A stretch of 39,895 nt of DNA from Bacteroidota bacterium (GTDB taxonomy: Bacteria > Bacteroidota > Bacteroidia > Bacteroidales > VadinHA17), in NCBI GenBank assembly GCA_029564935.1, contig JAKQPD010000400.1, forward strand, positions 1-39,895. The letters are read 5' to 3'. Of the stretch, positions 16,501-36,248 are shown in pieces. Position 1 is the first letter of the stretch; every line of letters begins with the position of its first letter. The notes under the pieces were generated by a model. The model was not told where the DNA came from, did not search any database, and saw only the letters and a list, made by a program, of their open reading frames with translations. A program made the translations under genes and the position numbers.

Positions 16501-17433
16501 GTGAAAAATAAGATAACGTCATTTCTGTTTATTATATTATTTCTTACAATGAGTAACGTGTCATTTTCGCAGGAAAAGCTGCCTTATAATTCTTTGAGCC
16601 GGCAGGAAGCTGCCGTGATTAATGATAAGGGAACAGAGACCCCCTTCACAGGAAAGTTTACAACATACAAAGAATCAGGTACATATGTCTGTAAGAAGTG
16701 CGGAGCCGCACTTTATCGTTCTACAGACAAGTTTGAATCAGACTGCGGCTGGCCGAGCTTTGACGACGAGATCAAAGGAGCAGTAAACAGGTCTGTTGAT
16801 GCTGATGGCAGGAGGACTGAGATAACATGTGCGTCATGCGGGGCTCACCTGGGACATGTTTTCACAGGGGAAATGTTCACTAAGAAGAATCTCAGGCATT
16901 GTGTCAATTCTGTCTCACTCGATTTCGTTCCGGCAGTTCTCGAAAGCGGAAGATATGGTACTGCAATCTTTGCAGGAGGCTGTTTCTGGGGAGTTGAGTA
17001 TTTCCTTCAGAAAGCACCGGGAGTAATATCAGTCACTTCAGGATATACGGGCGGACATGTTAAAAATCCGTCATATAAAGAGGTCTGCACCGGAAAAACA
17101 GGTCATGCCGAAGCTGTTAAGATCATTTATGATCCGGATAAGACAAATTATGAAACACTTCTTAAATTATTCCTCGAGATACATGATCCCACTCAGGTCG
17201 GGGGACAGGGTCCTGACATAGGCGAACAGTACCGGTCTGAAATATTTTACCTGAATGAGGAACAGAAAAATATCATTGAGAAAAATCTTAAAATTCTGAG
17301 GGATAAAGGATATAAGATCGCAACAGCTGTTACCCGGGCTTCGGAATTTTATGATGCAGAGAAATACCATCAGGATTATTATTTTCTGAACAGCAAGGTC
17401 CCTTATTGCCACGGCTATACAAAGAGGTTCTGA
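16501..17433 (+). CDS. msrBA: Exported bifunctional methionine sulfoxide reductase (MsrB-MsrA fusion)
   Basis: 310 aa. Repairs both stereoisomers of methionine sulfoxide in envelope proteins. A signal peptide (to about VSFSQ, residue 24) is followed by the MsrB domain (about 28-148), with zinc CxxC pairs CKKC and CASC, ESDCGWPSFDDEI, and the catalytic Cys in RHCVNSVSLDF. The MsrA domain (about 152-310) follows, with the catalytic GGCFWGVEYFLQ, GYTGGHVKNPSYKEVCTG, GHAEAV and QYRSEIFY. The B-then-A order is the reverse of the Neisseria-type enzyme. I use the GTG at 16501 because it gives the signal peptide directly. An ATG at 16485 opens an 8-codon frame that stops at 16511, across this start. 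Confidence 0.94.
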   Translation: MKNKITSFLFIILFLTMSNVSFSQEKLPYNSLSRQEAAVINDKGTETPFTGKFTTYKESGTYVCKKCGAALYRSTDKFESDCGWPSFDDEIKGAVNRSVDADGRRTEITCASCGAHLGHVFTGEMFTKKNLRHCVNSVSLDFVPAVLESGRYGTAIFAGGCFWGVEYFLQKAPGVISVTSGYTGGHVKNPSYKEVCTGKTGHAEAVKIIYDPDKTNYETLLKLFLEIHDPTQVGGQGPDIGEQYRSEIFYLNEEQKNIIEKNLKILRDKGYKIATAVTRASEFYDAEKYHQDYYFLNSKVPYCHGYTKRF

Positions 17434-18004: not shown

Positions 18005-19552
18005 ATGATTTTCCATAAGAATAGACAAAAGGCTTCTGTCGGACGCAGGACAAAAGTCTGGTTCTTTATTTCAGGTTTGGTTGTTTTCGCCCTGCTGATA
18101 ATACCCTACAGGTTTTTGATGAAGACAACATCTACTGACAGGTTCTGTATGATTTGCCATGTACATCCTCATGCCGATCAGAGCTGGAAGCTGTCAACTC
18201 ATCACAATAACAGTTCGGGTACTATTGTCCATTGCGTACAATGCCATCTCCCTCCGGAAGGAGAGGGATATTTTTTTGCCAAAGCCAGAACCGGCCTGAA
18301 GGATCTTTATGGATATCTTTTCAAAGATACAGCTGAGATTGACTGGGGAAAAAAGAAGCTTCTGGAGAATGCCAAAAAACTGGTATATGAGAACTCCTGC
18401 ACTGAGTGCCATGAGAATCTCTTTCCTCTTACATTATCTGTTAACGGGGGGAATGCCCATCTTTTATATACTACAAGTAAGGAACCTGTCAGTTGTCTGA
18501 ATTGTCATCTTAATGTGGGGCACTATGACAAAAATGCGGCTTTACATGCTCACGATTCGAGCTTTGGTGTGACAGTCACATCAACAGAACCGCCATTTGC
18601 AGAACCGGCAAAGGTTACGGGATTCAACAACTTTACCGAGATGATCCCGGGTACGAGAGTCTCTTTCAATATGATTGCCCTGCCCGGAGGGACATTCAAT
18701 ATGGGTAGTCCTGATGATGAGCCTCTTCGTGATCCGGATGAAGGACCTGTAAGGAAGGTGACGCTTTCCCCCTTCTGGATAGCCGAGACTGAAGTTACCT
18801 GGGATGAATATATGGCCTTTTTCAGAGCAACAAGTTCCCAGGGAAGGACGGAGGGACAGGTTGTAACCACGCAAAAGACTGATGCGATAAGCGGGGCCAC
18901 ACCTCCGTGGGGCGCCCCGGACCAGGGCTGGGGAAAAGGTTCCAGGCCGGCAATTACAATGTCGTGGCATGCAGCCAGCGTTTACTGCCAGTGGCTTTCA
19001 CAGGTGACAGGTAAGAAATACAGGCTTCCCACAGAAGCTGAATGGGAATTTGCATGCAGAGGAGGCACCGAAACTCCTTATTTCTTCGAAGGCGACCCCA
19101 AAAAATATACTTCTGAGGGATTCCTGAAGAGATTGATCAAACCCGATACCGCGAATATTGCCTCCAGGGTTGTTTATTCGGTAAACAGCGCTTCCAAAAC
19201 AGAGGAGCCGTCATTTGTCTTACCAAATCCTTTCGGGCTGAAGAACATGTCGGGCAATGTAGCTGAATTCTGTCTCGATTTCTATTCTCCTGATTTCTAT
19301 ATAGCAGATTCGACCAGAGTAGATCCGCGGGGACCGCTGAAAGGTCAGGAACATGTGATCAGAGGGGGATCATTCAAGAGCGATGCAAAAGATGTCCGCA
19401 GCGCTGCCCGTGATTTCACGAAGACAAAAGCCTGGCTTGTAACCGATCCGCAGATGCCAAAGAGCATCTGGTGGTATTCCGATTGCATCGATGTGGGATT
19501 CAGGGTTGTATGTGAGATCGATACAACTGCCGGGAAGACTGATACTCGTTAA
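18005..19552 (+). CDS. Membrane-anchored tetraheme cytochrome c (NapC/NrfH type) fused to a SUMF1/FGE-like domain
   Basis: 515 aa. A cytosolic Arg/Lys-rich start is followed by one membrane helix (about 18-39), then four CxxCH heme sites: CMICH (48-52), CVQCH (77-81), CTECH (132-136) and CLNCH (164-168). CVQCHLPPEGEGYFFAK resembles NapC/NirT/NrfH quinol dehydrogenases, which take electrons from menaquinol or pass them to it. From about residue 219 follows a SUMF1/FGE-sulfatase-type domain (IALPGGTFNMGSPDDEP, AETEVTWDEYMAFF, YRLPTEAEWEFACRGGTETPY, NPFGLKNMSGNVAEFC, VIRGGSFKSDAKDVRSAAR). The copper-binding cysteine pair of true formylglycine-generating enzymes is absent from the RGGSF segment, so sulfatase activation is unlikely. 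It leads a seven-gene operon and is followed by two Tat-exported sugar oxidoreductases, so I infer electron exchange between them and the quinone pool. Confidence 0.88.
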   Translation: MIFHKNRQKASVGRRTKVWFFISGLVVFALLIIPYRFLMKTTSTDRFCMICHVHPHADQSWKLSTHHNNSSGTIVHCVQCHLPPEGEGYFFAKARTGLKDLYGYLFKDTAEIDWGKKKLLENAKKLVYENSCTECHENLFPLTLSVNGGNAHLLYTTSKEPVSCLNCHLNVGHYDKNAALHAHDSSFGVTVTSTEPPFAEPAKVTGFNNFTEMIPGTRVSFNMIALPGGTFNMGSPDDEPLRDPDEGPVRKVTLSPFWIAETEVTWDEYMAFFRATSSQGRTEGQVVTTQKTDAISGATPPWGAPDQGWGKGSRPAITMSWHAASVYCQWLSQVTGKKYRLPTEAEWEFACRGGTETPYFFEGDPKKYTSEGFLKRLIKPDTANIASRVVYSVNSASKTEEPSFVLPNPFGLKNMSGNVAEFCLDFYSPDFYIADSTRVDPRGPLKGQEHVIRGGSFKSDAKDVRSAARDFTKTKAWLVTDPQMPKSIWWYSDCIDVGFRVVCEIDTTAGKTDTR

Positions 19553-19566
19553 TAATTCCTTATAAA

Positions 19567-20937
19567 ATGGACAATATCAACAGAAGAAAATTCATCGGAA
19601 CAGCGGCACTTGCGGGAATAGGTCTTGCAGGCGCAGGTGCAATCATTTCAGGCTGCAAAAAGGCTCCCGATAATAAGGAACTCGGCCTGCCTCCGGTTCT
19701 GAGAGGGGCTCCCAAAGGGAAAAAGCTCAGGGCGGCACTTATAGGTGCAGGAGCCAGAGGAACAGGCGCTGCAATAAATTTCATAAGCTCAGGACCGGAT
19801 CTTGAGATAATTGCTCTTGCAGATGTCTTCCAGGATAAGATCGATGCGTGCCGTGAGAGATTTGCCTCATTCAACCTTCCGATCCCTGAGGAGAACTGTT
19901 TTACAGGCTTCGACGGATATAAGAAGGCAATGGCTATTCCTGATGTGGATGTCGTTATTCTTGCCACACCCCCACAGTTCCGGCCCGATCATTTTCTTGA
20001 AGCGGTGCTTAAAGGTAAGCATGCTTTCCTGGAAAAACCTCTTGCTGTTGATCCGGTAGGTATAAGGTCAATCATCACTTCAGCAAAAAAAGCAGAATCT
20101 GTCGGACTAAATGTTGTTACGGGAACACAGCGGAGGCACCAGGAAGATTATATTGAAACATATAAGAAGGTTGCCGCCGGAGCCATTGGAACAATTACCT
20201 CGGCGAAAGCCTTCTGGAACCAGGATCATGTCTGGTTCAGGGAAAGGGAACCCGGATGGGACGATATGACCTATATGATCAGGAACTGGAACAACTTCTG
20301 CTGGTTATGTGGAGACCATATCCTGGATACACATGTACATAATATCGATGTGATAAACTGGTTCCTCGGGAAAGTTCCCGAAAAAGCCATTGGTTATGGA
20401 GGCAGGGCCAGAAGGGTCACCGGCGATCAGTATGATTTCTTCAGCATAGATTTTGATTACGGGAACGGGATCAGTTCTCACAGTATGTGCAGGCAGATAG
20501 ACAGTTGTGCCAACGCTACCGGAGAAATCATAATGGGAACCGAAGGATATACAAATTGTCAGAACACTATCTGGGATCTCAAAGGAAATGTAATCTGGCA
20601 GTTTGAATACCCGAAGGATGAGAATGGAAATCCGATGAACCAGACAGTTATTCCTCCTTATGTTCAGGAGCATATGCATCTGGTATATGCAATCCGGACA
20701 GGTGAATATGTTAATGAAGCCGAACAGACAGCTCTTTCCACACTTACTGCAATAATGGGAAGAACGGCTGCCTATACCGGGCGTGCGATAACATGGGATG
20801 AGATCTATAAATCCGATATGGATCTTGGTCCTGCGAAGCTTGAATTCGGTAAGGTCGATATGGCCTTTCCGACACCCGTGCCTGGTACTCCGGTCATTAC
20901 CACAGTCAAACCAGCCTTTAATGGTCAAATAATTTAA
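19567..20937 (+). CDS. Tat-exported Gfo/Idh/MocA-family oxidoreductase (lipoprotein)
   Basis: 456 aa. The N-terminus has a twin-arginine signal (NRRKFIG, Arg6-Arg7) and a lipobox-like end (ISGC, Cys30), so the enzyme is exported folded, probably with bound NAD(P), and lipid-anchored. The Rossmann domain has the dinucleotide loop IGAGARGTG, then ADVFQDKIDACRERF, and the family hallmark FLEKPLAVDP. The C-terminal alpha/beta domain includes the catalytic-site region DHILDTHVHNIDVINWFLG. Members of this superfamily oxidise or reduce sugars, often at C3, and some exported ones hydrolyse glycosides by a redox mechanism (GH109). It lies 14 bp after the cytochrome gene and 3 bp before a second Tat-exported paralogue. 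Substrate unknown. Confidence 0.9.
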   Translation: MDNINRRKFIGTAALAGIGLAGAGAIISGCKKAPDNKELGLPPVLRGAPKGKKLRAALIGAGARGTGAAINFISSGPDLEIIALADVFQDKIDACRERFASFNLPIPEENCFTGFDGYKKAMAIPDVDVVILATPPQFRPDHFLEAVLKGKHAFLEKPLAVDPVGIRSIITSAKKAESVGLNVVTGTQRRHQEDYIETYKKVAAGAIGTITSAKAFWNQDHVWFREREPGWDDMTYMIRNWNNFCWLCGDHILDTHVHNIDVINWFLGKVPEKAIGYGGRARRVTGDQYDFFSIDFDYGNGISSHSMCRQIDSCANATGEIIMGTEGYTNCQNTIWDLKGNVIWQFEYPKDENGNPMNQTVIPPYVQEHMHLVYAIRTGEYVNEAEQTALSTLTAIMGRTAAYTGRAITWDEIYKSDMDLGPAKLEFGKVDMAFPTPVPGTPVITTVKPAFNGQII

Positions 20938-20940
20938 GAT

Positions 20941-22254
20941 ATGTCAGAAAAATCATCAAGAAGAGATTTTCTAAGGCGTTCTGCTGCAATTGCTGCAGGT
21001 GCTTTTGTGATCCCCGAGATAATTCCCTCCTCAGTCCTGGGGATGGGGAAAGGTACGGCACCGTCAGACAGGGTTGTTATCGGTGCAATCGGGACAGGCT
21101 CACAGGGAATGTCCAATATGAGGGATTTCCTGAGACTTAAGGATGCAGTCAGGTTTGTTGCAGTCTGCGATGTGGATTCAGTCAGGCTGAACAGGGCAAA
21201 GGAAGTTGTGGATAAAGCCAATAACAGCCAGGATTGCCGTACGTATTCAGATTTCAGGGAATTCCTTGAAAAAGAACAGCTTGATGCAGTATCAATTGCT
21301 TTACCTGATCACTGGCATGGGATAATCTATACTGCTGCTGTCAACAAAAAGCTGAATGTTTATGGCGAAAAACCTATATGCAGGACCATTAATGACGGTC
21401 AGATCATTGTGGCTGCAGTTAAGAAGAACAATATTATCTGGCAGACGGGAAGCTGGCAGAGATCTCAGCCTCATTTTCGCCGTGGAGCGGAACTTGCCAT
21501 CAACGGAAGGGTAGGGAAGATCTCAAAGATCGTTGTAGGATTACCCGATGGAGGAAGGACGATAGGGACTCCGCCCGTCAAAGAGGTACCGCCCGAACTG
21601 AACTGGGAAATGTGGCTCGGACCTGCGCCAAAAGTGCCTTACCGGGGTGTAAGCCACTGGGACTGGAGGTGGATCCTCGACTATTCAGGGGGACAGCTTA
21701 CCGACTGGGCCGGTCATCATATCGATATTGCCAACTGGGGCGCAGGTCTGGAACATACCGGTCCTGTTGAAATTTCAGGATCAGGAGTTTATCCGCCGGA
21801 AGGTATCTATAATGCTCCGGTTGAATATGACTTCATGTGTAAATATGCAAACGGTATCGAAATGAGAGTCGCCAGTTCATCAAGGCTTGAACATGGTATG
21901 GGAACCACCTGGTATGGCGATCTGGGCTGGGTTCATACCGACAGGGGAAATGTCCTTACAGCATCAAAACCTGAAATACTTCAGGAAGTGATCGGTGAGA
22001 ACGAGATACATCTTTATGACAGTCCAAACCACTGGCAGAACTTTGTCGATTGTGTGAAATCAGGAAAACAGGCTATTGCACCCATTGAACCGGCTTACAG
22101 GGCAATATCTGTTGCGCTTCTGGGTGAGATTGCGATGACAACAGGAGAAACAATAAAATGGGATCCTGAAAAAGAGGAGATTATCGGAAATCCACGTGCA
22201 GCCAGACTGCTGAGCAGGCCTTACCGCAAACCTTGGACATTACCAACAGTTTAA
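20941..22254 (+). CDS. Tat-exported Gfo/Idh/MocA-family oxidoreductase
   Basis: 437 aa. Twin-arginine signal SRRDFLRRSAAIAAGAF (Arg7-Arg8) and no lipobox, so probably soluble in the periplasm. Seen: NAD-binding VVIGAIGTGSQGM, VAVCDVDSVRLNRAKEVV, ALPDHWHGIIYTAAV, the hallmark NVYGEKPICRTINDG, and the C-terminal DWAGHHIDIANWGAGLEHTG, which provides the His of the active site. The W-rich PPELNWEMWLGPAPKVPY segment is typical of the exported Bacteroidetes/Planctomycetes subgroup. It is clearly distinct from its neighbour at 19567, so the two may act on successive steps or form a hetero-oligomer. It is followed by the ThuA lipoprotein gene after 10 bp. Confidence 0.91.
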   Translation: MSEKSSRRDFLRRSAAIAAGAFVIPEIIPSSVLGMGKGTAPSDRVVIGAIGTGSQGMSNMRDFLRLKDAVRFVAVCDVDSVRLNRAKEVVDKANNSQDCRTYSDFREFLEKEQLDAVSIALPDHWHGIIYTAAVNKKLNVYGEKPICRTINDGQIIVAAVKKNNIIWQTGSWQRSQPHFRRGAELAINGRVGKISKIVVGLPDGGRTIGTPPVKEVPPELNWEMWLGPAPKVPYRGVSHWDWRWILDYSGGQLTDWAGHHIDIANWGAGLEHTGPVEISGSGVYPPEGIYNAPVEYDFMCKYANGIEMRVASSSRLEHGMGTTWYGDLGWVHTDRGNVLTASKPEILQEVIGENEIHLYDSPNHWQNFVDCVKSGKQAIAPIEPAYRAISVALLGEIAMTTGETIKWDPEKEEIIGNPRAARLLSRPYRKPWTLPTV

Positions 22255-22264
22255 ATCCACACAG

Positions 22265-23362
22265 ATGAAAAAGCTATATATATTATTGATTCTTACTGCC
22301 ATTTTGATGGCATCAGTCATTTCCTGTAAACAGCAGGCTGAAAATAAGGCTTTGATAATCACAGGTCAGTCCGGACACGACTGGAAGGTAAGTTCTGAGG
22401 CAGTAAAACAAATTCTCGATCAGACCGGTTTGTTTTCAACAAAAATCCTGGTTTCTCCTGCGCAAGGTGAAGATATGTCGGGCTTCAATCCGAAATTTTC
22501 GAAATACAATCTTGTAGTACTTGATTATGAAGGAGATGCCTGGCCAGAACAAACAGATAAGGCTTTTATGGATTATCTGACCAATGGGGGAGGTATTGTA
22601 GTTTTCAATTCGAAAAGCGATCCCGGACAGGCGATTTCGGAATCTATTACATCATCAAAGCGTTACACTTTTGAAATCAGGACACGGAACACGGACCATC
22701 CGGTCACAAAAGGATTACCGGTACGCTGGATGCAGCCGGAAGATGTAATAGTGCAGGGACTGGTTCCGTCGGGTAGCGAGGTTCTGGTACTTGCCACTGC
22801 ATTCTCAGATACTACTCATGGTGGTTCCGGTAAACCTGAACCTGTAATGGTGGCGATGAATGAAGGTAAAGGAAGGATATTTGCCACTATGATCGGATTG
22901 CCGGGAGGAGAAGAAGACCAGGCTTTACATAGCGTCGGCTCAATCGTAACTTTACAGAGGGGCGCTGAATGGGCAGCAACCGGAGCTGTAACGCAGGAAG
23001 TACCGAGTGATTTTCCTACTGCTGCTGCACCGGTCCTGAGACCGGATTTCAAGGCAATTACAACAGCGGAAGCATTCCGTATGATTGCGGATTATGATAT
23101 CCAGAAAAGCACCAGATACTATACCTTTATTCAAAATCAGCTTAGCAGAGCCGCCGGTGACGAGCAGAAACTTCTTGCTCTCGAAAAAGAAATGGTGAAG
23201 GTATTGAAGAATGAAGCTGCTACTGCCGAAGCGAAAAAACTTATGCTCCGCGAACTGAGCTGGATGGGATCGGCAAATTGTATCCAGGCAATAAAGGATC
23301 TTGCGGATGTGGATGGACTGAAAGACGAGGTGGCATATGCCCTGGAAAGGTTGGGGCAGTAA
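22265..23362 (+). CDS. ThuA-domain lipoprotein
   Basis: 365 aa. A lipoprotein signal (MKKLYILLILTAILMASVISC, Cys21) is followed by a ThuA-like class I glutamine-amidotransferase-fold domain (about 29-240): ALIITGQSGHDWKVSSEAV, YNLVVLDYEGDAWPE, NGGGIVVFNSKSD, then VMVAMNEGKGRIFATMIGLPGG. The last 100 residues are helical, possibly HEAT-like (LMLRELSWMGSANCIQAIKDL). In rhizobia ThuA works with the dehydrogenase ThuB on trehalose via 3-keto derivatives. Placement directly after two Gfo/Idh/MocA enzymes supports a keto-glycoside role in the envelope. The exact reaction is unknown. Confidence 0.85.
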   Translation: MKKLYILLILTAILMASVISCKQQAENKALIITGQSGHDWKVSSEAVKQILDQTGLFSTKILVSPAQGEDMSGFNPKFSKYNLVVLDYEGDAWPEQTDKAFMDYLTNGGGIVVFNSKSDPGQAISESITSSKRYTFEIRTRNTDHPVTKGLPVRWMQPEDVIVQGLVPSGSEVLVLATAFSDTTHGGSGKPEPVMVAMNEGKGRIFATMIGLPGGEEDQALHSVGSIVTLQRGAEWAATGAVTQEVPSDFPTAAAPVLRPDFKAITTAEAFRMIADYDIQKSTRYYTFIQNQLSRAAGDEQKLLALEKEMVKVLKNEAATAEAKKLMLRELSWMGSANCIQAIKDLADVDGLKDEVAYALERLGQ

Positions 23363-23373
23363 TTTAATTGAAA

Positions 23374-24303
23374 ATGTTCTCCCTCGTAATACCGGTATTC
23401 AATGAAGAGAAGCTGATCAATGAGCTGATCAGCCGGACAATTGCAGCTATCGAGGCATTTACTCCGGATTATGAGGTTATTTTTGTCGATGACGGAAGTG
23501 TTGATAGCAGCATACAGTTGATACTTTCACAACGGGAAAAGAATAAAAAGATCAAGCTTCTGACTCTATCCAGGAATTTCGGTCATCAGGCAGCCTTTAC
23601 TGCCGGACTGGAATATTCCACAGGCGATATTGTGGGAATGATGGACGGCGATCTCCAGGATCCTCCTGAACTGCTTGAAGCTATGTACAGGAAACTGCTG
23701 GATGAAGACCTGGAGATAGTCAGCGGGAAAAGGACGGGCAGGAAAGGTAATAAACGCCGGAACCTGGCATCAAGACTGTTTCATTCGGTCTTCCGCAATA
23801 TAGGCGAGCTGAAAAACATTGAGAACTACGGTAACTTTTCCATGATGAAAAGGATAGCGGTCGATGCCCTGCTCTCAATGAAAGAGAAAGTGCGATATCT
23901 TCCGGGACTGAGGAGTATGATTGGTTTCAGACAGGGTTATGTTGAATATGTACGTGACGACCGGCTCAAAGGACGGCCAAAAATGACCTTCACGAACCTG
24001 TTCCGGCTTGCAGGTGATGCAATATTTTCATTTTCAAGGTTCCCGATCAGAATATGCCTTATCCTGGGAACAGCAGGAACTCTGATATTCATGGGTGCAG
24101 GCATCTGGGTAATAATATCAAAGGTTACAGGCATTGCCATCCCGGGATGGTCATCGACATTATTGAGCCTCTATTTCCTGGGATCTATTCAACTGGTCTT
24201 CCTCGGGATTCTTGGTGAGTATATTTACAGGAACTATAAGGAATCACAAAACCGTCCGATATTCTTTGTAAGAAAATTCTATGACGATGCTGAGGGGAAA
24301 TGA
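23374..24303 (+). CDS. GT2-family glycosyltransferase (DPM1/GtrB/ArnC-like)
   Basis: About 309 aa. I use the ATG at 23374 (MFSLVIPVFNEEKLINELI); a TTG at 23368 is the alternative. GT-A fold with FVDDGSVDSS, the metal-binding MMDGDLQDPPELLEAM and NFSMMKRIAVDALLSM, followed by two C-terminal membrane helices (ICLILGTAGTLIFMGAGIWVII and TLLSLYFLGSIQLVFLGILGEY). Enzymes of this type load a sugar onto undecaprenyl phosphate at the cytosolic face. It overlaps the next gene, a GT-C-like membrane protein, by 4 bp, which suggests donor synthesis coupled to transfer outside the membrane. Confidence 0.92.
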   Translation: MFSLVIPVFNEEKLINELISRTIAAIEAFTPDYEVIFVDDGSVDSSIQLILSQREKNKKIKLLTLSRNFGHQAAFTAGLEYSTGDIVGMMDGDLQDPPELLEAMYRKLLDEDLEIVSGKRTGRKGNKRRNLASRLFHSVFRNIGELKNIENYGNFSMMKRIAVDALLSMKEKVRYLPGLRSMIGFRQGYVEYVRDDRLKGRPKMTFTNLFRLAGDAIFSFSRFPIRICLILGTAGTLIFMGAGIWVIISKVTGIAIPGWSSTLLSLYFLGSIQLVFLGILGEYIYRNYKESQNRPIFFVRKFYDDAEGK

Positions 24304-26366
24304 TGGAGAACAGTAAACTGAAATATTTGTTCTTTACATTTTCTGCCGTTCTTCTGTTCATGATGATCCTGATGAGCAGGGATGCAGGTATTTCATGTGA
24401 CGATGTTCTTCATTATGATCACTCTGTTGTAGTTTATAATTATTTTGCCTCTCATGGAGAGGATAAATCGGCACTTGAAACGCCGGTTACCCACCTCAGG
24501 TATTACGGACAGTCTTACGATAATGTTGTTACCTTCATTATCCGTTGGTTTGGTATAGAAGATGTTTACAGGTTCCGCCACCTGATGAGTTCAATTGCAG
24601 GATGGCTTGCAATGTTCATTACAGCACTGTTCGGGATCTGGCTGTGGGGATATGGTACGGGGACACTGATAATGATCCTGTTTGCTGTCTCGCCGACATT
24701 CATCGGACATTCCCTTAATAACCTCAAGGATATTCCTTTTGCCCTTTCATACATTTCAGGGATATTTCTCACACTCCGCCTGCTTACCTCCGAAGGTAAG
24801 ATAGTCTGGTATGAAGTACTCCTGCTGATAATAAGCATTGCTTTTTCAATAAGCATAAGAGCAGGAGGGATTCTTCTGATATGCTACCTGTTGTTTTTCT
24901 TTTTTGTGATCCTTTTATACAGATGTGCAACCGGAGGGAAAATTGATCTTAAGCCCGATGGTCTTAAACTGATAATATTGATCCTGATTTCTGTTTCAGC
25001 ATATATTCTGGGTTTAATTCTATGGCCTTATGCTTTGCAATCACCGGTGAAAAATGTTCTTGAATCCTACAGGGTGATGGCTCATTTTCCCGATACATTC
25101 AGGCAGATATTTGAAGGAAAGAATGAATGGTCCGATTTCATGCCATGGTATTATCTTCCAAAATCAATGGCAATTACAATACCTGTTATCGTACTTGCCG
25201 GGGCAGGCTGTTTCTTTTTGTTTTTGAATAAGATCCGTCAGTCCCGAAAAGGAATGATCTATGTCTTTCTGGTCTTTTCCCTTATTTTCCCGATGGTTTT
25301 CGCCATTATTCAAAAATCAAACCTTTACAGTTCATGGCGTCAGTTCCTGTTCCTGTATCCGGTTCTTGTAATTATAGCTGCGACCGGTATCAGGTTTCTT
25401 TTCCCGGGAATTCATAAAAAATTGTGGCAGATCGGTGTTATAGCAGCACTTGCATTGCTTGTTATTCATCCTGTTGAATTCATGGTGAAGAATCATCCAT
25501 ATCATTACCTGTATTATAATCAGCTTGTAGGTGGACTGAAGGGTGCATATGGCAGATATGAGACCGATTATTATTATGTGAGCCAGACCGAAGCTTCAGA
25601 GTGGCTGATTGATTATCTGGAGGAAAAAGGAATAGATTCTGTATCAGTAGGAGCGACCTATCCTGTAAAATGGTCCTTCAGGAATAATCCCGGGATAAAA
25701 ACGTTTTACTTCAGACACGAGGAAAGGAGCCGGTATGACTGGGATTATGCAATAGTTGCTAACAGGTATATACATCCTTTTCAGCTTGACAACAAGATAT
25801 GGCCGCCTGAGAATGCAATTTATACGATAAGGGCGGATGGCATTCCGATCGGGGTTGTCATGGAAAGAAAGAACAAGGATGATTACTATGGGTATACAGC
25901 CCTTGAAGAAGGCCGGTCAGCAGAAGCTGTCACTCATTTTGAAAATGCTTTGAAGTACAATGATAAAGATGAGATGATTTTTTATAATTTTGCACGGGCT
26001 TTATATAATGAAGGATTTTATGAAAAGGCAGATTCCGTGCTGAAAGCCGGCCTGGAAATCAATCCGTTCTGCGAGCCGATACTCATGTACCTGGGAAATA
26101 TTGCCAAATCCCGTAATGATTCAGGGACAGCAGCCGGATATTATGAAAGGCTCCTGAAGTATAACCGGAAGTATTTTCAGGCATATGTTGAGTTATCAGG
26201 CTTGTATTTCGCGGAAGATCTTCAGAAAGCAAGAAAGCTTTTACGGGATTGCCTGAAGCTTAATCCGGGTTACAAACCCGCAATAATTGCCCTCGGAGAT
26301 ACTTACAGGGAAAGTGATCCGGAAACCGCTGAAAAATATTATAAAATTGCAGACACTATTAAATAA
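24300..26366 (+). CDS. GT-C-like membrane glycosyltransferase with C-terminal TPR repeats
   Basis: 688 aa. An N-terminal helix, then the acidic loop motif ISCDDVLHYDHSVVV expected for GT-C enzymes that use polyprenyl-phosphate sugars, then about ten further membrane helices to about residue 400. A soluble region follows, and from about 530 tetratricopeptide repeats (YYGYTALEEGRSAEAVTHFE, FYNFARALYNEGFYEKADSV, ILMYLGNIAKSRNDSGTAAG). The start ATG overlaps the stop of the GT2 gene (ATGA), indicating translational coupling. The likely role is transfer of a sugar from the lipid donor made by the GT2 partner to a protein or envelope glycan on the periplasmic side; TPRs could bind the acceptor. The acceptor is unknown. 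Confidence 0.82.
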   Translation: MMENSKLKYLFFTFSAVLLFMMILMSRDAGISCDDVLHYDHSVVVYNYFASHGEDKSALETPVTHLRYYGQSYDNVVTFIIRWFGIEDVYRFRHLMSSIAGWLAMFITALFGIWLWGYGTGTLIMILFAVSPTFIGHSLNNLKDIPFALSYISGIFLTLRLLTSEGKIVWYEVLLLIISIAFSISIRAGGILLICYLLFFFFVILLYRCATGGKIDLKPDGLKLIILILISVSAYILGLILWPYALQSPVKNVLESYRVMAHFPDTFRQIFEGKNEWSDFMPWYYLPKSMAITIPVIVLAGAGCFFLFLNKIRQSRKGMIYVFLVFSLIFPMVFAIIQKSNLYSSWRQFLFLYPVLVIIAATGIRFLFPGIHKKLWQIGVIAALALLVIHPVEFMVKNHPYHYLYYNQLVGGLKGAYGRYETDYYYVSQTEASEWLIDYLEEKGIDSVSVGATYPVKWSFRNNPGIKTFYFRHEERSRYDWDYAIVANRYIHPFQLDNKIWPPENAIYTIRADGIPIGVVMERKNKDDYYGYTALEEGRSAEAVTHFENALKYNDKDEMIFYNFARALYNEGFYEKADSVLKAGLEINPFCEPILMYLGNIAKSRNDSGTAAGYYERLLKYNRKYFQAYVELSGLYFAEDLQKARKLLRDCLKLNPGYKPAIIALGDTYRESDPETAEKYYKIADTIK

Positions 26367-26383
26367 TTATAAATAAGAATGAA

Positions 26384-26653
26384 ATGAAAAAGACAGTTCT
26401 TGCACTCTCATTAACAGCATTATTTGCATTATGCGGGCTCACATCATCATTTTCACAGGATCAGCCCAAGCCACAGAAGGATACGGTCAATATTGATACC
26501 GATGCCAAGCCAACAACTTATTATGATGTTGAAGACGAGGGTAAATCCGCCTCTGATAAAGAAAAAGGAAGCGGCGGAACAATTGCCATAATACTCGGAG
26601 CAGTCGTGGTAGTCGGTGCTGTTGCAATTTTCCTGCTGAAAAAGAAGAAGTAA
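26384..26653 (+). CDS. Small exported single-pass membrane protein, unknown function
   Basis: 89 aa. Signal peptide (MKKTVLALSLTALFALCGLTSS to about FSQ), a polar Asp/Lys/Thr-rich mature part (QPKPQKDTVNIDTDAKP), a Gly-rich hinge, one C-terminal membrane helix (TIAIILGAVVVVGAVAIFLL) and four terminal lysines as stop-transfer. The topology resembles a surface anchor tail, but it is not a sortase or T9SS signal that I recognise. It lies 17 bp after the GT-C-like gene as the last operon gene; it could be a glycosylation acceptor or an accessory subunit. The 455-bp gap beyond it is filled by repeats. Confidence 0.7.
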   Translation: MKKTVLALSLTALFALCGLTSSFSQDQPKPQKDTVNIDTDAKPTTYYDVEDEGKSASDKEKGSGGTIAIILGAVVVVGAVAIFLLKKKK

Positions 26654-26702: not shown

Positions 26703-27030
26703 CTATAACCGTCAAATTGACGGAATTGTTGAGATAGGAGTTTCCCCTCCTTTTTTTTAAGGAGGGGTGGCCAGACTACAAAATCATCTATCGTGCAGAA
26801 ATATAAATGTTCTGGCCGGGGTGGTTTACTCTTCCTTTTATTAACTTTATTTAAATGGATAAAAATCACCTCATTTACCGAAACAGTCTCAAACCTCTCA
26901 AATCTTAAATAACCACCCCGGCCGGGGAAAGACAATTGTAAACATTTCAAGATAAGCAATCCCGGCCACCCCTCCTTGAAAAAAGGAGGGGAAACTTATA
27001 TTCGCAACAATCCGTTGGTTGACAATGATG
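26703..27030 (+). repeat. Palindromic MITE-like element, copy B
   Basis: Starts near CTATAACCGTCAAATTGACGG and ends near GGTTGACAATGATG, a decayed form of the terminal inverted repeat seen in copies A and C. The left hairpin pairs CCCCTCC (26744-26750) with GGAGGGG (26761-26767); the right hairpin spans 26969-26991. The inner arms TTCTGGCCGGGGTGGTTT and AACCACCCCGGCCGGGGAA pair across the centre. It sits in the convergent gap between the operon end and the Gfo/Idh gene at 27109. Confidence 0.85.
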
Positions 27031-27110
27031 CCCTCCGCTCTGCACTCTTGGCCCTTTTCTCGGTGTCCTGCGCCCTGTGCTCTACGCCCTGTGCCCTGTG
27101 CCCTGCGCCT
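27031..27110. repeat. Minisatellite of GCCCTGT units (right of MITE copy B)
   Basis: Tandem CCTGTGCC/CCTGCGCC units in inverse orientation to the run at 26659-26702. It abuts the TAG stop (27109-27111) of the minus-strand oxidoreductase. Translation gives Pro-Cys-Ala-Leu repeats, a common source of spurious gene calls. Confidence 0.75.
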
Positions 27111-28242
27111 ATATCTTCACCCACACATTCCCTTTGGCATTGGAATTGACCACCGAGTGGATGAACTTCATTCCCCTTACACCATCATGAACAGTCGGGA
27201 ACTCACCTTGAGTGAATGCCTGGCCCCTCATCGATTTTGCCACACCTTTATATATATTGGCAAGGGCTTCATAAATACCTTCAGGATGACCTGCAGGCAT
27301 TGTCTGTCCCTCTTCAGCCATCTTTTCGTTATAACCGTGAGCAGGCTTGAAAACTTTCGTCGGTTCCGTATCACTGAACATATACAGGTAATTGGGATTC
27401 TCCTGTTCCCACCTGAGACTTGCCTTTGATCCGTAAACAGATACAACTATATCATTTTCAAGACCTCCGCAAACCTGGCTGGCTCTTATAACTCCTTTGA
27501 GCTTATCGCTGAACCTCAGCAGTACCGTACCGTCAAGATCAAGTTTTATGTCTTCCTTAACCGGATTCAGATCCGAAAGAACTTCTTTGATCTCAAGGCC
27601 TGTCGTATATTCGATCAGGTTGAATGCATGTACACCGATATCACCCATGCAGCTGCTTACTCCGGCATGTTTCGGATCAAGGCGCCATACACCGGTAATC
27701 CTGCTGCCGGTGCCATGAATAATTGCATTGATCCATCCCTGATAGTACTGTGCATCAATGCGTTGTATCGTTCCAAGCACTCCTTTCGCGATCATTTCCC
27801 TCATCTGCCTTACCATGGGGTAACCGGTATAGGTGTGTGTGAGTGCAAAGGTGAGCCCTGTCTCCTTAACCAGCTTTTCCAGATCCTCTGCTTCCTCAAC
27901 GGTCATTGTCATAGGCTTTTCGCAGACAAGGTGGAATCCGTTTGTGAGGAATTTCTTTGCCTGGGGATAATGAAGTGCGTTGGGTGTGACAATAGATACA
28001 ACTCTGATCCTTTCATTTTCAGGTAAGGCGAGTTCGGCTTTTATCATTGCATCAACACTTTCATAGCAACGGTCGGGACTGATCCCTTCTTTGGCTGCAA
28101 ATTCTTTACTTCTTTCATAATCGATGTCGAAGACTCCCCCGACAAGTTCAAATTCATTGCAAATCCTTGAGGCGCGGCGATGAGCATCACCGATGAATGC
28201 ACCTATTCCGCCACCTATCATTCCCATTTTAATTTTTCCCAT
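27109..28242 (-). CDS. Cytosolic Gfo/Idh/MocA-family oxidoreductase
   Basis: 377 aa from the ATG at 28242 (MGKIKMGMIGGGIGAFIGDA); an earlier in-frame start at 28278 lies inside the preceding gene and is less likely. No signal peptide, unlike the two Tat-exported relatives in the window. NAD-binding GMIGGGIGAFIG, ELVGGVFDIDYERSKEFA, IVTPNALHYPQAKKF, the hallmark HLVCEKPMTMTVEEAEDL, and SCMGDIGVHAFNLIEY with the active-site His. It lies 13 bp downstream of a TIM-barrel sugar isomerase/epimerase gene, a common pairing in catabolism of inositols and keto-sugars. The substrate is unknown; a link to the exported redox module upstream is inference. Confidence 0.92.
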   Translation of the reverse strand: MGKIKMGMIGGGIGAFIGDAHRRASRICNEFELVGGVFDIDYERSKEFAAKEGISPDRCYESVDAMIKAELALPENERIRVVSIVTPNALHYPQAKKFLTNGFHLVCEKPMTMTVEEAEDLEKLVKETGLTFALTHTYTGYPMVRQMREMIAKGVLGTIQRIDAQYYQGWINAIIHGTGSRITGVWRLDPKHAGVSSCMGDIGVHAFNLIEYTTGLEIKEVLSDLNPVKEDIKLDLDGTVLLRFSDKLKGVIRASQVCGGLENDIVVSVYGSKASLRWEQENPNYLYMFSDTEPTKVFKPAHGYNEKMAEEGQTMPAGHPEGIYEALANIYKGVAKSMRGQAFTQGEFPTVHDGVRGMKFIHSVVNSNAKGNVWVKI

Positions 28243-28255
28243 GACAATTATTTTT

Positions 28256-29248
28256 TTATTTTTCAAAAGCAGAATCAAAAGCTATATCAGATGGAGCAAA
28301 ATCGACAGATTTCACAAAATCGCATGCTTCCATTGCCCCGTGTTCACGGTCCATTCCACTGTCTTCCCATTCTACCGAGAGAGGACCTTTATATCCTATC
28401 CTGTTCAACGCTCTGATTATCTCCTCGAAATCAATATTGCCGCGGCCCGGGCTCCTGAAGTCCCAATACCGGCCTTTAGTGCCGAAATCGGTATGGCCTC
28501 CGAATACACCTGCTTCCGCCGGGATTTCCGACCATCCCACATCCTTCATATGTACGTGGAAGATACGATCGGCAAATGCGTAAATGAAATCTACATAATC
28601 AACTCCCTGATAACCAAAGTGTGAAGGATCATAATTGAATCCGAAAGCAGGATGGTTATTTAAAGCTGCAAGTGCTTTCCTTGTTGATGCGATATCGAAA
28701 GCTATCTCCGTCGGATGAACTTCAAGGGCAAACCTTATCCCGAGTTTTTTATATTCATCAAGAATTGGTTTCCAGAGTTTTGCGAATTCCTTGTAGCCGT
28801 CTTCAATCATTTTCGGGAGGTTGGGAGGGAAGGAGTATGCAAGGTGCCAGATTGGACTGCCTGTGAAACCATTAACTATGGATACACCAAGCCTTTTAGC
28901 TGCTTCAGCAGTTCTGATCATCTCTTCGGCTGCACGTTTTCTTACGCCGTCAGGCTTCCCGTCACCCCATACATAAGCCGGTACAATGCTCTTGTGCCGT
29001 TCATCTATCCTGTCAGCTACCGCCTGCCCGACAAGATGGTTCGAGATCGCGAAAAGCTTCATTCCGTATTTGTCGAGAAGCTTCCTTTTAGCTTTGCAAT
29101 ACGCATCATCTGCTTTGTTAACTTCAAAATGATCTCCCCAGCATGCCAGTTCCAATCCGTCATATCCGAAGGATTTAGCTTTCTGACATACCTTTTCCAG
29201 AGGGAGATCAGCCCACTGGCCTGTGAATAATGTTACTGGTCTGCTCAT
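28256..29248 (-). CDS. Sugar phosphate isomerase/epimerase-like TIM-barrel protein
   Basis: 330 aa from ATG at 29248 ([20 protein letters not shown]); an ATG 21 bp upstream adds only MIQNINK. Xylose-isomerase-like TIM barrel (AP_endonuc_2 superfamily). Four metal-ligand positions are visible: Glu in FALEVHPTE, Asp in [12 protein letters not shown], His in [11 protein letters not shown], and Glu in [14 protein letters not shown]. Members isomerise, epimerise or dehydrate keto-sugars (as in IolE/IolI). It is the first gene of a two-gene operon with the Gfo/Idh/MocA enzyme and is divergent from the nitroreductase gene (105 bp between starts). Confidence 0.9.
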
Positions 29249-29353
29249 TTTATTTATATTTTGTATCATGCTAATATAAGAAAATCATTTTCAAAGTGCC
29301 GTAAGCATTGGGCAGAATTTCTTTTCTTTGTAATAATACAACCGAAGTATAAA

Positions 29354-32820: not shown

Positions 32821-32912
32821 CATTGCGAGCCCGAATTAATACGCCTCCGTTAAAACTACGGCGTATAAAAGAGGGCGAAGCAATCCTTACCGTGTATCAC
32901 TAAGTACTCTCA
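32821..32912. repeat. CATTGCGAG...GAAGCAATCC repeat, single copy
   Basis: CATTGCGAG (32821-32829) and GAAGCAATCC (32877-32886) enclose a longer hairpin (CTCCGT... / ACGGCGTAT around 32842-32865), followed by GTGTATCACTAAGTACTCTCA (32892-32912). The last bases supply the TGA stop of the minus-strand protease gene. The same unit, in the same orientation, occurs three times at 36249-36429. Confidence 0.85.
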
Positions 32913-35900
32913 CCTCCTCACCCTCACCGGATACGCCGGCCTTACCGGTTTCGGCTGCGGATTCTTCTCAAGTTCTTTCAGCGCAACCTCAATTGCTTTC
33001 TCAAGCTGAGGATCCCTGCCTTTAATTATCTCTGCAGGCAGCTGTTCGACTTCTATATCCGGAGCAATACCTACATTTTCCACAATGAACCCATCTTCAG
33101 TCCAGATTGCCAGGTTCGGTGCCGTAACTCCTCCTCCGTCCATCAGCTCCGGGAAACCAAGTGTCCCAACCAGTCCGCCCCAGGTACGTGTTCCTACAAG
33201 TGTTCCGACTTTGAACTTCCTGAACATCCAGGGAAGCATATCACCACCTGATCCGGCATATTCATTTACGAGCATCACTTTCGGACCCTGGATCGAACCA
33301 CTGGGCGACTTGAGATCATTGCCATAACGCATATTCCAGTAGGACTGAAGCGGTCGCAGAAGTATGTCAATATAATAATCCGCAAGAAGTCCGCCGCCAT
33401 TGAACCTTTCATCGACAATCACAGCCTTCCTGTTGACCTGGGGGAAGAAATACCTTTTGAAATATTCATGTCCCGATGTTGATGTATTCGGTACATAAAC
33501 ATATGCAACCTGTCCGTTGGTAGCTTCGGTCACCTTCTTCAGATTCCCTTCCACCCAGTCGCGGTTCCTGAGGCTATATTCACCGCCTACAGGTACCACC
33601 TTAATAACTCTCGACCCTGAATAGTCAGGCTTTGAGCCGATTGTAAGCTCTGTTATCTTACCGTCGGTATTTTCAAAATAACTGAAGATATTCTTATCTG
33701 CAGTAAGATCTTTTCCGTTAACAGCCAGTATATAATCTCCCGGATTGACATTAAGTCCGGGTTCTGCAAGCGGACATCTGAGGTCGGGATTCCAGTTCAA
33801 TCCTCCGTAGATCTTTTTGATCTGGTATCTGTTGCCTGATATGCTGAAATCGGCGCCAAGAAGTCCAACCCCGACTCTCTGCGGATTAAGGGGGCGATCA
33901 CCTCCGCTCACCCTGTGGTGACCTACGGCCAGTTCGCTGCACATCCACTGGATCAGCCTGTTGAGGTCGCTCCGGCAGGATAGATCCGGAAGGAATTTTG
34001 AATATTTGGTCTTAATTGCATTCCAGTCAGCGCCATGCATTCCCGGATCGTAGAAATAATCGCGGTTGATCCTCCAGGCTTCATCGAACATCTGTGGCCA
34101 CTCAACTGCCGGATCGACTTTCACTGAAACAGCACTGAGATTCAGAATGCCCTTACCCGGTTCAGGTTTCTTCCCGGTTGAGGTAATTCCGACCGTCTGG
34201 TCTTTTGTATACAGCATCTTCTTTGTGTCAGCTGAGATAATAAAATTATCTGCTTCCATTATCTCACTGTCCTTCCTTTCCTTGAGATCATATTTATGAA
34301 TGGTTGATCTTTCAGATATTACAGACGGACTTACAATATAGTATATTTCACCGGCTGCCCCTGCACCAAGATTATAATAATCACCTGCAGCAACGGGAAT
34401 ATTCACTATCCTGTTCCTTAATCCTTCAGTGTCTATTTTCAACCCTTCAGGCTCCGTTTTTTCAGGTATGCTGCTTTTGGCTTCTTTCTTCTTATTTCCC
34501 GCAGGCTTTGCCGGTTCCGTTTTTTCTTCTTTTATTTTCTCTTCATCGCTTTCTTTTGCGAATGGTGACAGAGTATCTTTTTGAAGTGTGACAAGGTAAA
34601 TTGACTTTGTCATTCTCATATCCTGGGTTGAAAGATCGAACCAGTTAACAACAGGTCCCGCATCTGTTGATACAAAGAAATAAAGGTATTTGCCTGAGGG
34701 GTCAAAAACCGGTTCTGAGGCATCGCTCATACCGTCGGAAACAGGAAAAGATCTCTGCTGATCAACTGAATAGAGATATACTACCTTGAAATATGTATCA
34801 GACACTTTTGTATATAATATCCATCTGGAGTCGGATGACCAGTCATTTATAAGTTTTCTGAATGGTCCGGGAGAGTTGAGAGCATCAGAATCGATCTTTT
34901 TAATGACACCTGTTTGTACATCAGCCAGATACAGGCTCTTACTATTATCTACATAGCAGATCTTCTTACTGTCGGGTGACCATTCCGGGAAGGCATAAAA
35001 TCCTGACCCCACAGGTTTTATTATCTTAGGATCTCCTTTACCGTCCTGTGATTTTATATGTAGTTCATATTCTCCTGATACATCTGAGAACCAGGCTATG
35101 GATTTACCGTCAGGAGACCAGGAGGGATATTTTTCATGAGATCCCGGTGTAGAGGTTATATTTCTCGGATCACCCTTTTCTTCCGGTACAGTAACTATAT
35201 CCCCCCGGATATCGAAAACTGCTCTTGCCCCGGAGGGAGAGATATCCAGGCTTCTTGCATAGGAAGTTCCCTGGACAAATCTTGGCCTGAGTTCCTGGAG
35301 ATCTGCAGCCACACCTACTTTCAGCCTGTGCACTGAGACAGCAGCAGGATCAAACATATGAAGATAACCGCCCTGTTCAAAAATTATATTTTTGTTTCCC
35401 GAAGCAGCCTTTATAATAGGATAATCGGTGAACGACGTGAGAGCCCTGACCTCTTTTGAAGAAATATCATATGAAAAAAGGTTGAACTCGCCATTTCTGT
35501 CACTTATAAAGAAAATGGTGTTATCTATCCACATCGGATCTGCATCATTGCATCCCCCTTCAGGCTGAGGTATTTTTACTATCGAATGGTCGGCCAGGGA
35601 GCAAATCCAGATCTTTGAAATTCTTCCGCCGCGGTAATTTTTCCATTGCTGGTAAGCAGGTGAAACCGGGGTATATGCCAATGATTTCCCGTCAGACGAA
35701 AAGGATGCTGAGTATCCTGCCGGGATGTCAAGCTGAACAGGATATCCTCCGGCAACCGGCACAAGGTAAAACTGCAGGTATGCACTTGTAAATGCCGAAC
35801 GTGGAGAAGTGAACAGGACATTGGCGCCATCAGGGGAGAAGCCTCTCACAATATCATTTCCGGGATGCCATGTAAGACGTTTCGGAACACCTCCATCAGC

Positions 35901-36197
35901 AGGAATAGTGAAAACATCAGTATTACCGTCATATTGTGCGCTGAAAGCTATAATCCTTCCATCCGGAGAGAACATCGGATCAGATTCGATACCTTCATCA
36001 ACGGTAAGCCGTTTTGGATTTGTGCCATCCATATTTGCCACCCAAAGGTCCTCAGCATAAATGAATGCGATCTTATCTGTACTTACAGCCGGTTGCGAAA
36101 GCATCCGGGTATCAGTGGTATTAATCCCGTACAGGGTACCTGTTCCGAAAATTGTCAGAATAAGTATCCAAACTTTAAAGCAATTAATTCTTTTCAT
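32910..36197 (-). CDS. Tricorn-like S41-family protease with beta-propeller and PDZ domains, exported
   Basis: 1095 aa from the ATG at 36197 (MKRINCFKVWILILTIFGTG), which gives a signal peptide. An upstream in-frame opening to 36302 only translates repeat DNA and is rejected. Order: PD40/TolB-like propeller repeats (FSPDGRIIAFSAQYDG, WSPDGKSIAWFSDVSG, WSPDSKKICYVD); a Lys/Glu-rich linker (DEEKIKEEKTEPAKPAG); a helical C1 domain with SELAVGHHRVSGGD (likely catalytic His); a PDZ domain; and the S41 core with VDERFNGGGLLADY and the nucleophile Ser in VNEYAGSGGDMLPW. Related tricorn enzymes degrade oligopeptides; here the signal peptide places it in the envelope. A single gene flanked on both sides by the same repeat family. 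Confidence 0.93.
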   Translation of the reverse strand: MKRINCFKVWILILTIFGTGTLYGINTTDTRMLSQPAVSTDKIAFIYAEDLWVANMDGTNPKRLTVDEGIESDPMFSPDGRIIAFSAQYDGNTDVFTIPADGGVPKRLTWHPGNDIVRGFSPDGANVLFTSPRSAFTSAYLQFYLVPVAGGYPVQLDIPAGYSASFSSDGKSLAYTPVSPAYQQWKNYRGGRISKIWICSLADHSIVKIPQPEGGCNDADPMWIDNTIFFISDRNGEFNLFSYDISSKEVRALTSFTDYPIIKAASGNKNIIFEQGGYLHMFDPAAVSVHRLKVGVAADLQELRPRFVQGTSYARSLDISPSGARAVFDIRGDIVTVPEEKGDPRNITSTPGSHEKYPSWSPDGKSIAWFSDVSGEYELHIKSQDGKGDPKIIKPVGSGFYAFPEWSPDSKKICYVDNSKSLYLADVQTGVIKKIDSDALNSPGPFRKLINDWSSDSRWILYTKVSDTYFKVVYLYSVDQQRSFPVSDGMSDASEPVFDPSGKYLYFFVSTDAGPVVNWFDLSTQDMRMTKSIYLVTLQKDTLSPFAKESDEEKIKEEKTEPAKPAGNKKKEAKSSIPEKTEPEGLKIDTEGLRNRIVNIPVAAGDYYNLGAGAAGEIYYIVSPSVISERSTIHKYDLKERKDSEIMEADNFIISADTKKMLYTKDQTVGITSTGKKPEPGKGILNLSAVSVKVDPAVEWPQMFDEAWRINRDYFYDPGMHGADWNAIKTKYSKFLPDLSCRSDLNRLIQWMCSELAVGHHRVSGGDRPLNPQRVGVGLLGADFSISGNRYQIKKIYGGLNWNPDLRCPLAEPGLNVNPGDYILAVNGKDLTADKNIFSYFENTDGKITELTIGSKPDYSGSRVIKVVPVGGEYSLRNRDWVEGNLKKVTEATNGQVAYVYVPNTSTSGHEYFKRYFFPQVNRKAVIVDERFNGGGLLADYYIDILLRPLQSYWNMRYGNDLKSPSGSIQGPKVMLVNEYAGSGGDMLPWMFRKFKVGTLVGTRTWGGLVGTLGFPELMDGGGVTAPNLAIWTEDGFIVENVGIAPDIEVEQLPAEIIKGRDPQLEKAIEVALKELEKNPQPKPVRPAYPVRVRR

Positions 36198-36248
36198 TTG
36201 TACATTATTAATTTCTCGATTATAAGTAATTAAACTTAATTGCACAGT

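Follow-up and report, generated by a model that had tools for sequence, protein, structure and literature searches.

A conserved gene pair in Bacteroidota joins a tetraheme cytochrome-SUMF1 fusion to a Tat-type Gfo/Idh/MocA oxidoreductase and may link exported sugar oxidation to menaquinone

To our knowledge, how exported oxidoreductases of the Gfo/Idh/MocA family re-oxidize their cofactor is open for most members. The question is raised again by a seven-gene operon of a Bacteroidota bacterium, located at positions 18005-26653 (+ strand) of a 39,895-nucleotide stretch of DNA (hereafter the window). As contig C166, the window belongs to a draft genome of 4.18 Mb whose near relatives are metagenome-assembled genomes (MAGs) of Bacteroidales or Bacteroidota. 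A first-pass annotation, made from the sequence alone, had described a tetraheme cytochrome gene followed by genes for exported sugar oxidoreductases and had proposed that these proteins exchange electrons. Open reading frame (ORF) calling and Pfam matches bear out the operon as it was described, in content, strand, and spacing: seven same-strand ORFs follow one another with gaps of 14, 3, 10, 5, -4, and 17 base pairs. The gene order is not a product of chance, because it recurs in the loci of relatives.

The first two genes of the operon are central to the question. Gene 1 (18005-19552, +) encodes a fusion of 515 amino acids (aa), identified by Pfam and alignment, in which a tetraheme NapC/NrfH-type cytochrome precedes a SUMF1/FGE-like domain. 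The heme domain (residues 18-174; 18056-18526, +) carries a membrane helix and matches Cytochrom_NNT (PF03264) with 82.1 bits against a cut-off of 24.1. Its four CxxCH motifs (C48/C51/H52, C77/C80/H81, C132/C135/H136, and C164/C167/H168) are invariant in an alignment of 27 sequences. The SUMF1 domain (residues 222-471; 18668-19417, +) matches FGE-sulfatase (PF03781) with 150.3 bits (cut-off 23.3). Gene 2 (19567-20937, +), here called gfoA, is its conserved partner and codes for a Gfo/Idh/MocA oxidoreductase with export features of both the twin-arginine translocation (Tat) type and the lipoprotein type, as judged from Pfam, gene neighborhoods, and a structure model.

Within the genus, gene 1 finds a match with E <1e-100 in 33 of 35 other genomes, the exceptions being G030 and G019, the latter with fragments only (genomes are designated by G numbers and loci by L numbers). 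Outside the genus, a near-full-length relative is present in five of 24 genomes of the order. Two copies, one of A type resembling that of the window and one of B type with 55-59% identity to it, occur together in 19 of the 35 genus members, fragments excluded, and in the genome of the window itself. In all 20 A-type loci that were fetched, from 24 full ones (G008, G014, G020, and G023 were left out), gfoA directly follows gene 1. Because some loci of a broader named set are on the same contigs as loci of the G-numbered genomes, we judged adjacency on the named set, which consists of the best 80 of 550 relatives from GTDB genomes, in stretches of 3.9-19.6 kb whose ORFs were called in this analysis and labelled by BLAST. 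There, gfoA immediately follows gene 1 in 73 of 80 loci, and four more loci end at a contig edge. Among the remaining loci, L094 has one opposite-strand ORF between the two genes, L139 has a short ORF and then the contig end, and L153 has SusC. Four CxxCH motifs are found in 79 of the 80. The set spans Sunxiuqinia, Saccharicrinis, Mariniphaga, Cyclobacteriaceae, and one KSB1 MAG. The opposite pattern, a cytochrome gene that usually occurs without the oxidoreductases, had been set beforehand as counting against the proposal; it was looked for and not found.

The conserved core of the operon is gene 1 plus gene 2, and gfoB (gene 3), thuA (gene 4), and the glycosyltransferase genes are variable. 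Downstream cover of five or more called ORFs is available for 54 named loci: 34 of them contain gfoB, 26 thuA, 25 both, and 42 each a family 2 glycosyltransferase (GT2) gene and a relative of gene 6; in the fetched A-type loci of the genus, gfoB and thuA each occur in 17 of 20. The coupling of the cytochrome to exported Gfo enzymes proposed earlier is thus upheld for the product of gene 2 and does not extend to gfoB and thuA, which fall outside the core. These neighborhoods lend good support to a dedicated genetic pair that would unite an exported dehydrogenase with a quinone-type cytochrome.

The SUMF1 domain, which is absent from the title of the first-pass annotation, tracks GfoA even where there is no heme. 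Sampled evenly, the class yields a match at 1e-60 in 22 of 395 genomes (that of the window included); because only four of these carry the heme form, it is uncommon in the class. The other 18, from six families, are SUMF1-only relatives, and gfoA adjoins in 13 of them. We compared these with 23 weaker SUMF1 loci as controls, three from the same genome as the window and 20 from relatives. No control has a Gfo, ApbE, or TIM-barrel neighbor, several of the control stretches being short or cut by a contig end; control L208 has a GT2 gene beside SUMF1, and control L217 has SusC/SusD. The contrast in gfoA adjacency (13/18 versus 0/23) gives a Fisher value of 5e-7, with rows that are related by descent. 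A gene for ApbE is present within five genes in nine of the 18 SUMF1-only clusters (four families), compared to one of the 80 named cytochrome-linked stretches (L139, near the contig start and far upstream) and none of the 54 with at least five downstream ORFs (Fisher 3e-7, uncorrected for descent). In addition, ten of the 13 GfoA-linked SUMF1-only loci encode a TIM-barrel protein that resembles its Tat-type counterpart in B-type loci. Pfam confirmed ApbE in L180, L185, and L189, YceI in L180, a 3-keto-disaccharide hydrolase in L182, and the TIM barrel in L185, and the other neighbor labels come from BLAST to these confirmed proteins. In two genomes of one family, a Tll0287-like protein (Pfam) with one CxxCH is encoded directly upstream of SUMF1-gfoA (L195:7207-7950 and L196:7639-8292).

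Two marks distinguish the GfoA-linked SUMF1 type. One is a loop that begins at Asp293 and reads DAISGAT in the window (residues 293-299; 18881-18901, +), and the other is the insertion WLVTDPQMPKSIWW (residues 477-490; 19433-19474, +). The DPQxPKSxWW part of the insertion is present in 79 of 80 heme-bearing and all 18 SUMF1-only sequences, and is gapped in 22 of the 23 controls. Because the heme-free relatives also adjoin gfoA, often together with ApbE, SUMF1 and GfoA make up a wider pair whose redox part is apparently exchangeable. We infer that one docking domain may have been combined with different redox parts, and that the heme-free form probably came first.

What, then, might gene 1 do? 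Like the tetraheme quinol dehydrogenases NrfH, NapC, and CymA, its product has an N-terminal membrane helix (residues 14-42 in a low-confidence structure model), four CxxCH motifs, and a PF03264 match above cut-off. It differs from them in its fusion to SUMF1, in falling short of the NrfH equivalog TIGR03153 (71.3 bits versus 134.2 required), and in having no NrfA gene among its Pfam-scanned neighbors. Elsewhere in the same genome, an NrfH-like gene adjoins an NrfA-like gene (recognized by eye, apart from a PF03264 match), so gene 1 need not serve NrfA, and we do not favor it as the quinol partner of that enzyme. Among solved proteins, FGE and PvdO are nearest to the SUMF1 domain in both sequence and fold; the fold matches come from a weak model (predicted local distance difference test, pLDDT, 54.7) in which loop and heme positions cannot be placed. 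The domain departs from FGE and PvdO in its fused hemes, its two extra stretches, and the absence of the catalytic Cys pair that FGE has after the RGGS motif: gene 1 encodes no Cys between that motif and Trp490. A role as sulfatase activator was rejected because these cysteines are missing. At a few loci (L130 and L147), inspection by eye places a sulfatase-like gene next to the gene 1 relative. The N-terminus of the relative at L072 (end of contig G046:C306) is doubtful, since its first translated residues resemble read-through of a sequencing adapter.

The DAISGAT loop exactly matches the ApbE flavinylation motif D-x-x-[S/T]-G-A-[S/T], as the motif is worded in a passage of PMC12052999. This motif is present in 66 of 121 heme-bearing copies (from overlapping sets) and in none of the 18 SUMF1-only sequences; its Gly-Ala is replaced by Gly-Pro in 53 of the 121 and by Arg-Pro in all 18, including those adjacent to ApbE. 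A looser loop pattern also matched one of the 23 control domains (L206), and the sole ApbE of the window's genome is encoded beside an NqrF-like gene. Flavinylation of Thr299 was rejected as an established feature, because the required Gly-Ala is not conserved, and survives as speculation only.

GfoA itself has the hallmarks of its family, namely the Rossmann GxGxxG, the lysine of the EKP motif, and the family fold. The products of genes 2 and 3 match GFO_IDH_MocA with 51.4 and 53.3 bits, respectively (cut-off 24), and twin arginines are visible at both N-termini; GfoA also has Cys30 in a lipobox-like position. In the named loci, all 74 twin-arginine GfoA proteins have a Cys within the 34 residues that follow, versus none of 13 in SUMF1-only loci. 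The genome encodes TatC and a cytochrome c assembly protein. The structure model of GfoA is good (pLDDT 83), and its fold matches include RgNanOx (6z3c), YjhC, inositol dehydrogenases, AAOR (5a02, 5a03), and GFOR (1rye, 1h6d), with 14-20% identity to the AAOR, GFOR, and RgNanOx structures. Inositol was not accepted as the substrate, the best NCBIfam model (inositol 2-dehydrogenase) scoring 73.9 of 355 bits. Invariant in an alignment of 20 sequences are the glycines of the nucleotide loop, Asp86, Glu156-Lys157-Pro158, Asp250-His251, and His258. An Asp at a position of the Asp86 type is a sign of NAD preference, and Asp86 therefore suggests that the cofactor is NAD rather than NADP. Finally, SUMF1 distances correlate with GfoA distances across 86 loci, in a set that counts some contigs twice (r 0.87; none of 500 shuffles reaches this value, the highest being 0.21).

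We give slightly better than an even chance to the proposal that genes 1 and 2 encode an inner-membrane redox pair that links oxidation outside the cytosol to menaquinone. GfoA would fold around NAD in the cytosol, be exported by the Tat system, and be tethered by its lipid-bearing Cys; it would then oxidize an alcohol group of a sugar or polyol while retaining its cofactor. The SUMF1 domain, devoid of the FGE cysteines, may dock GfoA, and the fused tetraheme domain may carry electrons between the NAD(H) of GfoA and menaquinone. Such electron flow between GfoA and the cytochrome is plausible from the sequences. Sugar to quinone would be the most likely direction, since electrons run downhill from NADH, at about -320 mV, to menaquinone, at about -74 mV. 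The resulting keto-sugar may be processed in the window by GfoB, ThuA, and the products of the converging Gfo and TIM-barrel genes.

A broader arrangement is possible, and we hold it only tentatively: a general respiratory module for NAD-dependent enzymes outside the cytosol, in which an FGE-like domain, no longer capable of its original chemistry, could dock a Tat-exported dehydrogenase with its trapped NAD and connect it to exchangeable redox parts. With the same reserve, we suggest the fused tetraheme domain as this part in the Bacteroidota described here; in other Bacteroidia it could be a one-heme protein or a flavin that depends on ApbE. Where hemes are present, Thr299 of the DAISGAT loop might carry flavin mononucleotide (FMN) as a gate between two-electron and one-electron transfer.

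Several observations weigh against the proposed redox pair. Passing a hydride to one-electron hemes calls for a flavin or another two-to-one-electron converter, and none was identified. The named set, being the best 80 of 550 relatives, favors near relatives. The 21 fetched loci that are B-type or lie outside the genus have gfoA directly next in ten cases and after one ORF in one, but lack it within the following four ORFs in the other ten, of which nine carry an ORF of SusC length (1019-1077 aa) and one ends close to the edge of its contig. In L056, L057, L062, L065, and the B-type copy of the window's genome, gfoA is farther downstream on the same contig; the last of these has a B-type gfoA 9.5 kb away, which speaks for the pair. 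Five of the 18 SUMF1-only loci have no adjoining gfoA, and shared descent plus the split between A and B types would also be expected to yield the correlation of distances. Furthermore, the genus contains a third type of GfoA (type C), with twin arginines and the same Cys, in a DUF2961-GfoA-TIM-barrel setting that sometimes includes a GH116-like gene. The fetched stretches of 13 extra GfoA loci contain no cytochrome-SUMF1 gene (L255-L266, which are 12 of 18 weaker rows not linked to a cytochrome, and L269; L262 is partial, and contig ends truncate L264 and L265). Because type C has the same residue, the lipobox Cys is not exclusive to cytochrome-linked GfoA, and its value as proof of cytochrome linkage is weakened. 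In a tree of a subset of 87 GfoA sequences, for which the proteins of the SUMF1-only loci were chosen as root, cytochrome-linked and type-C proteins group together with support 0.82, and L269 joins two out-of-genus copies rather than type C; because the inner nodes are weak (0.15-0.51), the tree does not decide whether type C lost the cytochrome. Type-C proteins might use a cytochrome in trans.

Some of these points bear on other explanations. GFOR and AAOR, which are close in fold to GfoA, need no outside acceptor, as they alternately oxidize one sugar and reduce another. If GfoA recycled its bound cofactor in this way, the cytochrome-SUMF1 protein would be a co-regulated neighbor with another job. 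The fold matches to AAOR, GFOR, and RgNanOx agree with this idea, and because type-C GfoA lacks a nearby cytochrome, self-recycling keeps a real chance. We nevertheless regard it as unlikely: an unrelated neighbor would not be expected to belong to one SUMF1 subtype that is paired with GfoA in both heme-bearing and heme-free forms, nor would ApbE be expected to alternate with the cytochrome, and the identity to the solved enzymes is low. It is more improbable still that electrons run the other way, from menaquinol through the hemes to the NAD of GfoA, with GfoA reducing a keto-sugar outside the cytosol. Flow from menaquinol to heme is the usual direction for NapC/NrfH proteins, and the heme domain is of that type, but the step from menaquinol to NAD would be uphill by about 250 mV.

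A somewhat better, though still doubtful, prospect is a role in making an envelope glycan, which differs from our proposal in substrate and purpose and is compatible with its redox part, such that the two probabilities overlap. GT2 would make a polyprenyl-phosphate sugar, gene 6 would transfer it outside, and GfoA and GfoB would oxidize or epimerize it with the quinone pool as sink, a logic comparable to that of DprE1/DprE2. The GT2 and gene 6 genes argue for this role, since they accompany the pair more often than do gfoB and thuA, and the models nearest to GT2 are PgfS and an undecaprenyl-phosphate sugar transferase. Against it, B-type and SUMF1-only loci, as well as L133 and L150, have catabolic-looking genes instead, among them some of SusC/SusD, TIM-barrel proteins, a lactonase, glycerol genes, and a 3-keto-disaccharide hydrolase. 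A keto-glycoside route is favored by L133 and L150 (Saccharicrinis aurantiacus), where the same strand continues after the pair with genes for GfoB, ThuA, a 3-keto-disaccharide hydrolase, a further Gfo, and a TIM-barrel protein; L150 also carries a second TIM-barrel protein and a major facilitator superfamily transporter.

Gene 3 (20941-22254, +) encodes GfoB, a second Tat-type Gfo/Idh/MocA oxidoreductase, and gene 4 (22265-23362, +) a ThuA-family protein (55.3 bits, cut-off 33.4) with a lipoprotein-type signal visible by eye. Gene 5 (23368-24303, +), which starts with TTG, encodes the GT2 protein (Glycos_transf_2, 109.8 bits); its matches to the two nearest models are below their cut-offs. 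Gene 6 (24300-26366, +) encodes a multi-span membrane protein that had been labelled GT-C-TPR. Its tetratricopeptide repeat (TPR) tail is supported by Pfam; the GT-C glycosyltransferase part is unconfirmed, with no Pfam glycosyltransferase match. Gene 7 (26384-26653, +) encodes 89 aa with a C-terminal hydrophobic stretch, matched no family in Pfam or NCBIfam profile scans, and is followed by a terminator-like hairpin at 26736-26751 (pattern match only). Two Pfam-identified genes converge on the operon: a Gfo/Idh/MocA gene with no visible export signal (27109-28278, -), possibly for a cytoplasmic step, and an AP_endonuc_2 TIM-barrel gene (28256-29269, -), with relatives in 14 and ten of the 20 fetched A-type stretches, respectively. 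The TIM-barrel proteins of L150 and L133 are 71 and 77% identical to the product of the latter. Only this gene is tied to the pathway by these loci, because the additional Gfo in L150 belongs to the BT_2158 type, with 324 of 750 bits, and is not a relative of the converging Gfo gene.

In the B-type loci L061, L141, and L149, the cytochrome-gfoA pair is followed by genes for a TIM-barrel protein, a lactonase, and (by eye) a glycerol-kinase-like protein; L061 and L141 also have a glycerol-facilitator-like gene (by eye), L061 and L149 a GlpD-like enzyme, and L141 a type I phosphodiesterase. The glycerol genes hint at a glycerol-containing substrate. In a Cyclobacteriaceae locus (L146:7001-8682), a glucose/sorbosone dehydrogenase-like protein and a small cytochrome c are encoded just before the cytochrome-SUMF1 gene. 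Upstream of the operon in the window is a gene for an exported-looking MsrB-MsrA fusion (SelR and PMSR domains; methionine sulfoxide reductase; 16501-17433, +), relatives of which are present in 14 of the 20 fetched A-type stretches, and farther downstream a large tricorn-protease-like protein with PD40 propeller, PDZ, and S41 peptidase domains is encoded at 32910-36302 (-).

Known systems provide partial parallels. GfoA resembles periplasmic GFOR and AAOR in export, fold, and an expected bound cofactor, but it is lipoprotein-type and paired with a redox protein, in contrast to enzymes that recycle through a second sugar. Passages of PMC4628093 describe the export signal and the sugar pairs, but not the recycling. 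In the LacABC lactose 3-dehydrogenase system of Caulobacter and the 3-ketoglycoside pathway (PMC9007349), oxidation likewise takes place at the membrane, facing the periplasm, and a DUF1080 hydrolase acts next; the same hydrolase family follows the pair in L133 and L150. LacABC consists of a GMC flavoenzyme and cytochrome c; in the window, a Gfo/Idh/MocA enzyme takes the place of the flavoenzyme, and Pfam found no GMC match among the seven operon genes and the two converging genes. GfoB is nearest to the NCBIfam BT_2158_fam glycoside 3-dehydrogenase model and to the solved chains 8tdf and 8tdh, which recalls BT2156-BT2160 of B. thetaiotaomicron, but with 144.7 of 750 bits it is not that equivalog, and we know of no cytochrome in the BT2156-BT2160 locus. 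According to a section of PMC11501099, deletions of BT2157 and BT2158 cause no growth defect on raffinose-family sugars. The words sulfatase, FGE, YceI, and NrfH are absent from the main text of a survey of flavinylated systems (PMC8238504), and searches of the open-licence literature showed no SUMF1-cytochrome-Gfo or SUMF1-Gfo-ApbE system.

The pairing is open to experiment because it is present in named strains, including Saccharicrinis aurantiacus, Sunxiuqinia species, and Mariniphaga sediminis. If the proposed redox pair is real, a dedicated membrane partner would answer how a trapped cofactor is re-oxidized, and sugar oxidation outside the cytosol would be linked to respiration. A set of SUMF1 proteins, named for a chemistry that seems to be beyond them, would also gain a function.

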